DNA of 64,000 nucleotides, taken from NCBI GenBank assembly GCA_016938035.1, contig JAFGVK010000036.1, forward strand, positions 1 through 64,000. The letters are read 5' to 3'. The notes beneath the pieces are model-generated. The model was given only the letters and a program-made list of their open reading frames with translations. It was not told the DNA's origin and did no database searches. Made by a program: the position numbers and the translations under genes. The DNA comes from Deltaproteobacteria bacterium (GTDB taxonomy: Bacteria; Myxococcota_A; UBA796; GCA-2862545). This document shows, in pieces, positions 8,933 to 43,751 of the stretch. How positions within the stretch are numbered: position 1 is the stretch's first letter; the number at the start of each line of letters is the position of its first letter.

Positions 8933-11044
8933 CTAGGCGCAGCCCCTGGTGAGGAGGATGAGGAAGATGGCGAACAGGAACATCACCGCCACCGCGCCCC
9001 CCGCGAGCAGCATCGGGTCCTGCCCGATCAGCGCTTGGAGCCGGTCCACCACCGGGCGGAGCGCCTCGGGGACCCTGGAGGGGGGCCCGTCCATCAGCTC
9101 GTCCAGGGGCTGCAGATCGTCGCCCAGCCGATCGGAGAACAGCGAGCGATCGCCGCCCAGGGCGGGGGCGGACAGGGCCTCCGGCTCTGGTAGGTCCTCC
9201 CACTGACCCGGGCCGGACCAGTCGGCCCCGTGGTCTGAGGGGTGGGTGGGGGGCTCGTCGAAGCCAGGGCCGGGCACCGGGCTGCCGAGCACCGTGGAGC
9301 CGGGGGCGAGGGTGGGCCGGCTGGGGGGAGGCGGAACCGAGAGGGTGATCCGGACCTCGCCCGGGTGGGTGGGGACGCCGCTGCCCATCCCGTCCGAGGG
9401 CGCCATCGGCGAGGGGTCCGACCACGCGTCGGGCTCGTCGTCCTCGTCAGAGTACGAGGGATCAGGGGCGAGGGAGGGCTTGGGGAACGGGATCACCGCC
9501 TGACCCGTGGGGGGCGTCGCGGCGCGCGCGGGGCTCCGCCCCGAGGTGGTGGGCGCGACGGGTGCGGGGAAACCGGAGGAGGAGTCGGGGTCTCGCGCCT
9601 CGAAGCCGGTGGGCTTGGGGAAGGGGATGACCGACGGCGGGTCCATCGCCGGGGTCGGCGGCGCCGCGCCCCAGGTGGGCGACTGCGGGGTAGAGGGCTC
9701 GTCGAAGTCCACGATGGACGCGGGCTCGCGCGGGTCGGTGGCCATGCGCGCGAAGGGGTTCTCCACCAGCTCCCCCGGGCGGCTGCGGGGCTCCGGCTCG
9801 CGCATCACCTGGCGGGCGTCGGCGGCGAGTCGCGAGAAGTCCAGCGCCTTGGGCTCCGGCTCGTGGGTAGGGGGCACGTAGCCGGGGGGAGGGCGCACCT
9901 CGAAGCTGGCCTGGGAGGTCTTCACCTCGCCCGGGGTGCCGTGGACCCCAAAGGCGGTCTCCAGGTCGTAGCGGCCAGGGGGGACGTCTGGCAGCTCGAT
10001 GTCGAAGCGGAGCCTGCCGGTGGGGTGGGGCTTGACGGAGAACTTGGCCTGCTCCAGCGACACGCGCTCGCCGGAGTCCAGGTCGACCAGCCGCAGGCCC
10101 ACCATCAGGTCCTCGTGGTTCACCGTCCCGATGGTGGTGTTCACCGAGACCGACAGCTTGACGGGGCCTGGCCCGCGGAACACGCCGTCAGGCGCCTCAG
10201 AGGGGTAGAGCACCCTGCCCACGTCGCTCACCACCGGTCGGAGCAGCGCGTACAGTTCCACCAGCCGGGGGTGCAGGTCCTTGGTGTGGCCGAAGCGGTA
10301 GGGGGGGGAGGGCTCAGCCTGCTCCGACAGGCCGCGCCGGAGCACAGCGCCCCACTTCTCGGCGACCCTCACCACGAAGCGGGGGTTGGCCCCCTCGCCC
10401 TTGAGGCGGGCGACGAGCTGATCCTTGAGGGCTGCCAGCTCCAGCTTGTCCATCGGGCCCGGCGCCGAGCCGGGGCGCACCGCCACCATCAGCGCCCCGC
10501 ACAGGGCCCAGGGGTCCGCCGCGAGGCCGGGGCCGGGGATCGAGGGGTGCCAGCCGCCCCGCAGGCGCTCGGGGCGCGAGGCCGCGGAGGGGGTGAGGGG
10601 GTCGGTGAGGATCACGGTGCCGTCGGCCTCTGCGAACAGGTTCCCCGGGTGGAGGTTGCCGTGGTGCAGCCCCTTCACCAGCAGCCCCGCCGCGTCGCGG
10701 ATCACCTGAAGCAACTCGGTGAGGCGCCTCCCCTCCTGGAGGGCCTGGGCGAGTGAGGTGCTGTACCTTGGGATAATCCAGGAATGCCCGTCCACCGTGG
10801 CGATGAGCGGCGGGAGCCAGGGGGTGTCCCCCGCGACCAGGAGCTGGAGCTGCTCGGCCCGCACCTTGGAGACCCAGGCGCGCTCCTCGGTGTCGGCGAA
10901 GTCGTCGGGTGGGGCCTTGAGCACCGCCTCCCGGTCGAGGTTGTCCCGCACCAGCCAGGTCCTCCCCCAGGCGCCCTGCCCGAGGAATTTCCCGACCGTC
11001 CAAGCGGTGCCGGTGGAGTCGGTAAGTTTCAAGCCGGTGTGCAT
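8933..11044 (-). CDS. Tail-anchored pseudokinase-like protein
   Basis: This 703-aa protein has a Hanks-type kinase fold over residues 15-290. It keeps a glycine-rich loop (GQGAWGRTW, 22-30) and a VAIK-type Lys43. The catalytic loop reads HGNLHPGN (128-135) instead of HRDLKPxN, and the DFG position reads TDP (about 147-149). With the catalytic and metal-binding Asp residues missing, it is probably inactive and may act as a scaffold or binding module. A long Pro-rich, acidic linker (about 390-670) follows. A single C-terminal membrane segment (about 676-700) ends in TRGCA, so the whole protein should face the cytoplasm. Just upstream of pepA; divergent from the GH3 gene. Confidence 0.75.
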   Translation of the reverse strand: MHTGLKLTDSTGTAWTVGKFLGQGAWGRTWLVRDNLDREAVLKAPPDDFADTEERAWVSKVRAEQLQLLVAGDTPWLPPLIATVDGHSWIIPRYSTSLAQALQEGRRLTELLQVIRDAAGLLVKGLHHGNLHPGNLFAEADGTVILTDPLTPSAASRPERLRGGWHPSIPGPGLAADPWALCGALMVAVRPGSAPGPMDKLELAALKDQLVARLKGEGANPRFVVRVAEKWGAVLRRGLSEQAEPSPPYRFGHTKDLHPRLVELYALLRPVVSDVGRVLYPSEAPDGVFRGPGPVKLSVSVNTTIGTVNHEDLMVGLRLVDLDSGERVSLEQAKFSVKPHPTGRLRFDIELPDVPPGRYDLETAFGVHGTPGEVKTSQASFEVRPPPGYVPPTHEPEPKALDFSRLAADARQVMREPEPRSRPGELVENPFARMATDPREPASIVDFDEPSTPQSPTWGAAPPTPAMDPPSVIPFPKPTGFEARDPDSSSGFPAPVAPTTSGRSPARAATPPTGQAVIPFPKPSLAPDPSYSDEDDEPDAWSDPSPMAPSDGMGSGVPTHPGEVRITLSVPPPPSRPTLAPGSTVLGSPVPGPGFDEPPTHPSDHGADWSGPGQWEDLPEPEALSAPALGGDRSLFSDRLGDDLQPLDELMDGPPSRVPEALRPVVDRLQALIGQDPMLLAGGAVAVMFLFAIFLILLTRGCA

Positions 11045-41494: not shown

Positions 41495-42211
41495 CTACCG
41501 TTGCGGGTGACGCGTCCACACCTCACCCTGAAGCAGCTCGTACGGGCGAAAGCTGGTCTTGTAGCGCATGTGGTCGTTCCCCTCGACATACAGGCCCAGG
41601 TAGTAGTGGGTCCTGCCGGTGCGCGCGCAGAGATCGATCTCGTGCAGGGCCGAGAGGGTGCCCAGCGACAGGTGAGACAGCGCCGGGTCCGGGTCGAAGT
41701 AGAAGTAGACCGAGCTCGCTGAGCGTGCGCCCAGGTCCAAGATGCTCACCCCCACCAGTCTGCTGCCGACGCGGTACTGGAGCTCCACGGTGTCCGTGCA
41801 GGTCTGGATCAGCCACGAGACATAGCCCACGGGGGAGAAGGCCTGCTCGTTCTGCGAGAGCCCCCGCTCCACCTTGTGGCGGTTGAAGAGCGCGAGCTTC
41901 TCTGGCGACCAGCTAGGAGACGCTCCCTCCACCGCGCCGCCGACCTGCTGCCACCTGCGCAGCACCCGGCGCTGAGACTTGGAGGGCTGGAAGCCCTCTA
42001 CCGGGACCCTGATCCCCATGCAGGCCTGGCACGAGGGGCACTGTGGCCGGTAGAGCGAGGAGCCGACCCTGCGCTCGGACCGCGCGAACCTGGCGTCCGC
42101 CTCCGGGGGGCCCAGGCGGTCGAGCTGCCGGTACATCGGCATGCGGGCGAGGCGATCGGGGAGGTAGGGGCACGACTGCAGGCCGTCGTGGATGAGCTTC
42201 TCTCGGGCCAC
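41495..42211 (-). CDS. bpt: Aspartate/glutamate leucyl-tRNA-protein transferase (Bpt)
   Basis: This 238-aa cytosolic enzyme belongs to the bacterial ATE family. It moves leucine from tRNA to N-terminal Asp or Glu and so marks proteins for ClpAP. Visible are the N-terminal Cys cluster (SCPYLPDRLARMP, then CPSCQAC), the FNRHKVERGL-type central segment, and the YFYFDPDPAL and YYLGLYVEGNDHMRYK motifs. The length is normal. GTG 42211 has GGAG 5 nt upstream. Confidence 0.93.
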   Translation of the reverse strand: MAREKLIHDGLQSCPYLPDRLARMPMYRQLDRLGPPEADARFARSERRVGSSLYRPQCPSCQACMGIRVPVEGFQPSKSQRRVLRRWQQVGGAVEGASPSWSPEKLALFNRHKVERGLSQNEQAFSPVGYVSWLIQTCTDTVELQYRVGSRLVGVSILDLGARSASSVYFYFDPDPALSHLSLGTLSALHEIDLCARTGRTHYYLGLYVEGNDHMRYKTSFRPYELLQGEVWTRHPQR

Positions 42212-42358
42212 CGGCGCTCCGTGGCGTTCCTTGGTGGGGTGAGGGGGGGAGCCCCCTCTGCCCCGGGGAGGATCGCATCGCCGCGATCCGTGAAAGAGAG
42301 GGCGGCGTCCCCCGACCTGCGGAGGGCGCCGCCCGACCCGTTCATACGGGGTTGCGCG

Positions 42359-43261
42359 CTACGACGGCTTCTTGGGGGGAGCCTTGGTGGAGCGCCCGCG
42401 GGACTCGGGCGAGGAGAGGTGGAACTCGGTGCGGCGGTTCTTCACCCTACCCTGCTCGGTCGAGTTACCGGCCACCGGGTACTTGTAGGCGTAGCCCTCG
42501 GAGAAGTAGACCCTGTTGGAGACCTGCGCGCCCAGGGCGTCCGCGACCGTCTTGGCGCGGGCCTGCGAGAGGGCGATGTTGTGGGCCCAGGAGCCCATGG
42601 TACAGGTGTGACCCTCCACCCACACGGTGGTGATCTCCGGGTGGTTGACGAGGGTCTGGCCGACGTCGTGGACGATCTTGCTCCCCTCGGGGGTGAGGTC
42701 TGCCTTGTCGTACTCGAACTGGACCGGGGGGGTCTTGATCTGATCGTCGTCGGGGTCGACCACGATGTTGGGGGGATCCTCTGGGGGCGCGGGGGGCTCG
42801 GGCGGAGGCTTGGGGGCGTCCGGCTTGCCGTTGATGTAGATGCCCTCGTGGGCGATCTCGAGGGTCTCAACCGCGAGCCCGGAGCTGTCCGCGTTCATCG
42901 CTGGGCCTTCCCAAGAGACCGGCCAGGCGTTGACAAAATAGAACGTGCGGAGGACCACGCCGTCGTTGCCATACATGATGATGGCGCCAGAGGTGGTGGG
43001 GCGCTCGCTGAACTTGTCCTGCAGCCACCTGTCGCGCCACTCGAGGAGGGTGGTGCTGACGCTGGTGCCGTACTTCAGGACGATGTTGTCCCAAGTGCTG
43101 CGGCCCGGCAGGCGGTGCACCTGACCGTTGAGGCCGCCTTCCTTGATCTCGTAGACCGCAGCGGTCGTCTTCAGACCGCTGCACTCCAGGAAGTGACCCA
43201 CCTCTACGCCGTTGAGCTGGAGCGCGAAATAATAGCTGCCCCAAGGATCTAGATTGGCCAT
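42359..43261 (-). CDS. Phage/eCIS-type tail-tube protein fused to OmpA-like domain
   Basis: This 300-aa protein combines two parts rarely seen together. Residues 1-145 match the T4 gp19-like tail-tube family: FLECSGLKTTAAVYEIKEGG, LPGRSTWDNIVLK, NAWPVSW and VETLEIAHEGI. Residues 146-178 are a Pro/Asp-rich linker. Residues 179-282 are an OmpA-like peptidoglycan-binding domain (FEYDKADLTPEG, VEGHTC, NIALSQARAKTV, NRRTEF); GHTC replaces the usual GHTD. There is no signal peptide. GAGG lies 7 nt before ATG 43261. No sheath, baseplate, spike or ATPase gene is near. It might be an orphan tube of an injection system, or an adapted wall-binding assembly. Confidence 0.88.
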   Translation of the reverse strand: MANLDPWGSYYFALQLNGVEVGHFLECSGLKTTAAVYEIKEGGLNGQVHRLPGRSTWDNIVLKYGTSVSTTLLEWRDRWLQDKFSERPTTSGAIIMYGNDGVVLRTFYFVNAWPVSWEGPAMNADSSGLAVETLEIAHEGIYINGKPDAPKPPPEPPAPPEDPPNIVVDPDDDQIKTPPVQFEYDKADLTPEGSKIVHDVGQTLVNHPEITTVWVEGHTCTMGSWAHNIALSQARAKTVADALGAQVSNRVYFSEGYAYKYPVAGNSTEQGRVKNRRTEFHLSSPESRGRSTKAPPKKPS

Positions 43262-43751
43262 GAAAATACCTCACGAGGAGCAATGATATTTGAGTCAGAA
43301 CAAGCCGGCTGGGACTCGACTCATCATAGCAGCTATCCTCGGTGAGGGGAAAGGGGGACTGTCGACCTCAGTCACCATGGGGCTATCGGACGGTTGAGGT
43401 GGTGGCGCGGTGGGGGTGGTGAGCGCTGTGCGGAGGGGGCCTGGATGAGGTCGGCATGGTGGGCTCACCCGACGATTCGGCGCAGGAAGGCGCTGTCAGC
43501 GCGGATCCTCGCCGCTGAGTGGGGCCCCGCGCTCCTGCGCGCGGTGGTGGAGGGCCCGGCGAGGAGCGCTGCCCCTGGCGCTCGGCGGCTGTGCGCGGCC
43601 CGTCGGTGTGTGGATGGCGAAGGGGCGGCGAACCGCGCCCCCGAGCCGGACGGACAGACCTGGCCTCTGGGGGATGCTCCGGATCGGGTGGATCGCGGCG
43701 CGCCTTGGGCTCCCAAGGGGGGGCGTTCTGGAGAATGATCTGGCGAACAAA
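43262..43751. other. Intergenic, upstream of tail-tube-OmpA gene
   Basis: There is no supported gene. The first 80 nt upstream of the fusion gene (about 43262-43340) are AT-richer than the surroundings and contain GAGTC...GACTC inverted pieces. This is the probable promoter region of the fusion gene. The rest shows nothing. Confidence 0.5.

Follow-up and report, generated by a model that had tools for sequence, protein, structure and literature searches.

A predicted CIS5-type tube protein with an OmpA-like domain, kept as a stand-alone gene in one family of Myxococcota

What role could be played by a single protein that joins a tube domain of contractile injection systems (CIS) to an OmpA-like domain, when its gene lies in a window of 64 kb (the whole stretch of DNA analysed, 64,000 nucleotides) where tblastn of CIS proteins matched only this one gene? 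The absence of other CIS genes from the window had been claimed in a sequence-only reading, which also placed the gene at 42359-43261. These coordinates were right, and reading of the ORFs assigned the gene, of 300 codons, to the minus strand, the plus strand having only an overlapping shadow ORF at this place. The features of the locus are the following:

42359..43261, minus strand: gene of the fused protein, predicted CIS5-type tube domain + proline-rich linker + OmpA-like domain (300 aa; orthologues in 7 other genomes)
43269..43274, minus strand: ribosome-binding site GTGAGG ahead of the ATG (direct reading)
42839..43237, minus strand: gp19/CIS5-type tube domain, residues 9-141 (PF06841, tree, fold matches)
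42728..42829, minus strand: flexible proline- and acid-rich linker, residues ~145-178 (sequence DAPKPPPEPPAPPEDPPNIVVDPDDD; pLDDT <50 at 150-164)
42434..42718, minus strand: OmpA-like domain, residues 182-276 (PF00691; matches to OmpA, YiaD and OprF domains)
42602..42604, minus strand: codon of Cys220 at the place of the diaminopimelate (DAP)-binding Asp, GHTC for GHTD (alignment, motif survey)
42300..42334, minus strand: strong hairpin directly past the stop codon (RNA fold -36.9 kcal/mol, z -2.98)

The start codon of the fused gene is secure, since an in-frame stop nine bases 5' of the ATG overlaps the GAGG of the ribosome-binding site. The hairpin after the stop codon, which is perhaps a terminator, suggests a single-gene transcript. 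On the opposite strand, an antisense shadow ORF of 458 aa (window 41876-43252, plus strand) spans nearly the whole fused gene, and antisense frames of a similar kind were found at all eight orthologous loci; high GC content and codon bias are probably responsible for them. A simple gene finder favoured the shadow ORF, which was overruled by the homology of the minus-strand frame. The N-terminus of the fused protein, MANLDPWGSYYFALQLNG, was read directly and shows neither a signal peptide, as the sequence-only reading had stated, nor a lipobox. With no export signal, the OmpA-like domain would therefore meet the cell wall only upon tube firing or cell breakage.

Both proposed domains scored above their Pfam cut-offs in this one protein. 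PF06841 (Phage_T4_gp19) matched residues 9-141 (E 8.5e-30, 103.7 bits against a cut-off of 28.2), with NCBIfam TIGR02241 also above its cut-off, and PF00691 (OmpA) matched residues 182-276 (E 3.3e-13, 50.2 bits against a cut-off of 27.2). AlphaFold2, with an input of 37 sequences, predicted both domains confidently and residues 150-164 of the linker as disordered; as pTM was low (0.44), the relative placement of the two domains is not fixed by the model. In Foldseek searches against the PDB the first half matched CIS tube-initiator and tube proteins best (7aeb_Y, 6j0n_n, 9gtp_a and 7b5h_AM), in line with the eCIS-type tube fold suggested earlier, and 6j0n_n (Pvc5), 9gtp_a and 7b5h_AM among them come from CIS baseplate structures. 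For the second half the best matches were OmpA-like domains (6jfw, 5wtp, 5u1h), and the matches included domains of OmpA, OprF, YiaD and PA0833, the type VI secretion system wall anchors 4b62 and 5m38, and the DAP- or peptide-bound structures 3td4/3td5. PHROG family 7897, of unknown function, matched residues 141-279 (window 42425-42841, minus strand) with an E of 3.9e-22, more strongly than the Pfam OmpA model did, and phages such as Cellulophaga phage phi17:2 also carry OmpA-like proteins.

A profile search for the two-domain architecture across genomes, which the sequence-only reading had proposed, found eight genomes (that of the window and seven others), from five genera of one Myxococcota family, in which a single frame encodes both domains. 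The fusion was not found by profile search in 50 other genomes of the class nor in about 300 further genomes of the phylum; in the phylum search the best six candidates per genome were scored, and all eight fusions were still recovered. A pattern scan of 85,000 species genomes, keyed on two short motifs so that remote cases could escape it, gave no further fusion. Within the family, the fusion is carried by only 8 of the 21 genomes, several of which are incomplete, and the fused gene is therefore dispensable. The two halves were compared between the orthologues of G010 and G020 by the Nei-Gojobori method, which gave dN/dS values of about 0.20 for the tube half and about 0.52 for the OmpA half; the latter evolves faster, and both halves are, as judged from this pair, under purifying selection.

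An assembly or frame error that joined two genes had been named beforehand as what would overturn the finding, and the source genome, that of an uncultured, myxobacteria-like bacterium, does come from a fragmented assembly (246 contigs, 89% complete). However, the same uninterrupted frame, with the same domain order and type of linker and mostly with the GHTC motif, recurs in eight separate assemblies. Because all eight have the fusion as one open frame, a sequencing-error or assembly fusion was excluded, and the probability that we attach to such an artefact is close to nil. No phage or plasmid record covering both domains was found, and among viral contigs the scan met just a single, distant match to the tube; an origin from a phage or plasmid was rejected for these reasons.

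The surroundings of the gene are shared between relatives. The window, G010 and G012 have as common neighbours of the fused gene a tRNA-protein transferase (ATE), a prepilin peptidase and a YXWGXW protein, a neighbourhood that spans three genera, and from which we conclude that the fused gene was inherited in place. As these genes include nothing CIS-like, a conserved CIS partner gene beside the fusion was rejected. In the stretches of 5-20 kb read around each of the eight fusions there was no CIS gene, such as a sheath or baseplate gene that would locate the fusion in a CIS cluster, so that joint expression with a CIS cannot be taken as given. The neighbours in G008/G018 and G010 (GYF_2, DUF4253, methyltransferase) offered no functional clue. 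An OmpA gene adjoins a tube gene in G012 and G019, an adjacency that we take as chance because the arrangement differs between the two and is absent in G009.

A search for eCIS genes elsewhere in the source genome, also proposed in the sequence-only reading, located them on three other contigs:

Contig C178: two main tube proteins, a zinc-ribbon protein, sheath 2 and, at the contig end, a CIS5-type protein
Contig C169: sheath 1, a Pvc16_N cap protein, an eCIS-core protein and an AAA ATPase
Contig C166: hub, gp25, baseplate J and Tail_P2_I proteins

The possibility of a genome without a CIS was thus rejected. In relatives the same CIS genes stand together in one cluster. A CIS7 gene was not seen in the source genome and may have fallen into the gap that separates C178 from C166. 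The fused protein had been suggested to be an orphan part of a distant eCIS; the rest of a CIS is indeed encoded elsewhere, but in the same genome, and the orphan reading is only partly right. Nearly all members of the family have such a CIS, so the co-occurrence of fusion and CIS is uninformative. Six of the eight fusion genomes have a separate CIS5 within the CIS cluster. The main tube gene of G002, G008 and G012 (contigs C88, C13 and C4) lies on a different contig from the CIS cluster, which indicates that the CIS is split in several family members.

To which kind of tube protein the fused tube domain belongs could be judged from the proteins of these clusters. It is 51% identical to the cluster CIS5 encoded beside sheath 2 on C178, and 37% to the two main tubes. 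When 68 tube domains were placed in a quick tree, the main tubes came out as a separate group with 100% SH-aLRT, and the fused proteins were placed with the cluster CIS5 proteins, inside the CIS5 clade of their family. The same clade takes in two stand-alone copies that lack a fusion (G009, G019) and a protein of G006 that joins tube and hub. This tube-hub fusion (L059, contig C337, 1124-2929, plus strand) combines a CIS5-clade tube domain with a Phage_GPD hub domain in one frame of 602 aa (PF06841 + PF05954) and lies in a CIS cluster, directly behind a second, separate hub gene, which places the CIS5-like clade at the hub-tube junction. The eight fused proteins did not form one clade in the quick tree; since holding them together was not rejected (p-AU 0.727, with a better likelihood), one origin is possible, with the OmpA half lost in one genus. 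The fused and the other CIS5-type domains agree in conservation at 47 of the 146 positions of the tube domain, with the EGGxN loop and the WPVxWEGP motif among them, and the ring geometry has therefore probably been kept. The NCBIfam CIS5 equivalog cut-off of 260 bits was reached neither by the fused protein (72.9) nor by the cluster CIS5 of the same genome (63.6).

Judged by these sequence comparisons, the tube half is a duplicated tube initiator of CIS5 type and not a main tube. The earlier picture, in which every tube subunit bears an OmpA domain, is then probably wrong, the initiator type making one ring of six subunits likelier. Such an arrangement is also unlikely because, in a type VI system, a large addition to an Hcp cargo stops sheath assembly (PMC8262886).

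The OmpA half has the fold and the family score of an OmpA-like domain. Its Cys220 and Arg235 were matched to Asp271 and Arg286 of Acinetobacter baumannii OmpA by the motif spacing GHTx...LSxxRA, which we take to be that of the A. baumannii protein as well. Asp271 and Arg286 bind diaminopimelate (PMC7573547). In the alignment the Arg of this binding pair is conserved in all eight fused proteins, whereas at the position of the Asp there is Cys in six, Ser in one and Asp in only one, the G012 orthologue, which retains GHTD. The same position holds Asp in nine and Ser in three of 12 other OmpA domains surveyed, so that among the domains compared Cys was seen only in fused proteins. With the DAP-binding Asp mostly replaced, peptidoglycan binding by the OmpA half is not to be assumed; of the 'wall-binding' OmpA domain announced in the sequence-only reading the fold was recovered, but the binding is unproven.

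Each part of the protein has counterparts in known systems. Its tube domain has the fold, the clade and the motifs of the CIS5 proteins of eCIS (Alg5, Pvc5, Afp5, Anabaena Cis5); unlike these, it is followed by a C-terminal OmpA-like domain, and the gene lies away from the CIS cluster and is a second copy in most fusion genomes. CIS7/Alg7 also consists of a tube-initiator barrel with a C-terminal domain of wall-binding type, in Alg7 a tube-type barrel with a LysM domain, and it is the LysM domain that contacts the baseplate wedges in the particle (PMC8894135), but CIS7 belongs to another tube family (PF19266 CIS_tube in this order), has LysM in place of OmpA and is encoded in the cluster. Specialised Hcp proteins of type VI secretion (Hcp-ET) carry C-terminal extensions and occur beside ordinary tube proteins (PMC8262886), as does the fused protein, in which residues 145-300 form an extension of more than 60 residues. 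In contrast to Hcp-ET, it gave no TssD match in Pfam at E up to 1, it is of initiator and not of main-tube type, and its extension gave only OmpA-type matches and none to a toxin. With the type VI wall anchors TssL and TagL (4b62, 5m38) it shares an OmpA-like fold tied to an injection machine; these are membrane proteins with a periplasmic domain, whereas the fused protein has no membrane segment or export signal and has lost the Asp. For related uncultured Myxococcota, namely MAGs of the class UBA796, the main-text eCIS passages of one paper describe eCIS clusters of the same kind and report a gp19 gene as highly expressed, and these passages mention no OmpA fusion (PMC11937823). To judge from the names of its relatives, the source genome probably belongs to UBA796 as well.

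We lean slightly towards the fused protein being a specialised initiator ring or a cargo-bearing subunit of the genome's own CIS. Computation established its two domains, its paralogy to CIS5, the CIS in the genome and the conservation in eight genomes. A duplicated CIS5-type subunit with an OmpA-like domain on a flexible proline-rich linker would be made in the cytoplasm and then built into the CIS particle, where it would form a specialised ring, or part of a ring, between the hub/spike and the main tube, replacing or accompanying the ordinary CIS5. The OmpA-like domains might then be housed in the region of the baseplate, as is the case for the LysM domain of CIS7, or travel with the fired tube and reach the envelope, like the C-terminally extended Hcp proteins of type VI. 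It is the assembly into the particle, the position at the hub-tube junction, the delivery on firing and the contact partner of the OmpA-like domain that we infer here.

Two rival proposals are versions of this explanation that differ in the role given to the OmpA-like domain. Just as type VI systems have their anchor in the OmpA-type domain of TssL/TagL, the fused ring could dock at the wall, its OmpA-like domains binding peptidoglycan so that the particle is fixed or steered at the wall of either the producing or the target cell. The confidently predicted OmpA fold, the matches to type VI wall anchors and to ligand-bound structures, the Arg kept throughout and the GHTD of the G012 orthologue all agree with such docking. 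We nonetheless hold it doubtful, as the binding Asp that most other OmpA domains keep is replaced in seven of the eight fused proteins, and the wall would be reached only through firing or lysis; that the first tube ring, with up to six OmpA-like domains, holds the particle or the fired tube at the cell wall is in our estimate unlikely. If the domain no longer binds the wall and works instead as a module for protein-protein contacts, the fused protein would be a baseplate part, as the wedge-contacting LysM domain of Alg7 suggests (PMC8894135) and as would fit both the Cys confined to fused proteins in our survey and the faster evolution of the OmpA half. We hold this as doubtful as wall docking, for the OmpA-like domain is otherwise well kept and the ordinary CIS5 also present in six of the eight genomes implies that a baseplate can do without the fused form. 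The structural, delivering and wall-holding roles are not separable by sequence.

A ring that acts independently of a CIS, whether as a free hexamer or as a scaffold in the cytoplasm, would suit a stand-alone gene with its own ribosome-binding site and possible terminator, set in a neighbourhood without CIS genes that is common to three genera. Against this, the protein retains the CIS5 motifs, its sister of the same clade in G006 is fused to a hub inside a CIS cluster, and no OmpA-like domain with a partner in the cytoplasm is known to us, so that we regard a role of this kind as quite unlikely. The sequence-only reading had also raised an exapted tube; nothing that we found points to an independent exaptation.

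Neither half of the protein is unfamiliar, nor is the idea of extending a tube protein, known from C-terminally extended tube proteins in type VI systems and from the tube-initiator barrel with a wall-type domain in CIS7. The joining of a CIS5-type initiator to an OmpA-like domain in a second, stand-alone gene that is kept in a family did not turn up in the databases and papers searched. These gave neither a CIS5-type protein with an added envelope-type domain nor any described protein with a gp19-tube and OmpA layout, of which the sequence-only reading had likewise known none. If the fused protein enters the particle, it would be a natural example of a CIS gaining a function through one changed ring and would help to understand how uncultured Myxococcota bring their eCIS into contact with the envelope. 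Designs that attach domains at the hub-tube junction may also find a natural template in this protein. Were wall-holding true, it would amount to a wall-docked contractile injection that needs no membrane complex, a mode intermediate between the free particles of eCIS and the membrane anchoring of type VI systems.

Two further observations concern the tube genes of the clusters. In the source genome two nearly identical main tube genes lie in tandem (L005, contig C178, 3374-4401, minus strand), where relatives usually have one copy. The cluster CIS5 frames of several relatives (L106, L101, L099 and L113, near 9600-10420) have long N-terminal Gly-rich repeats of the GGGRxxxQPSI type before the tube domain.
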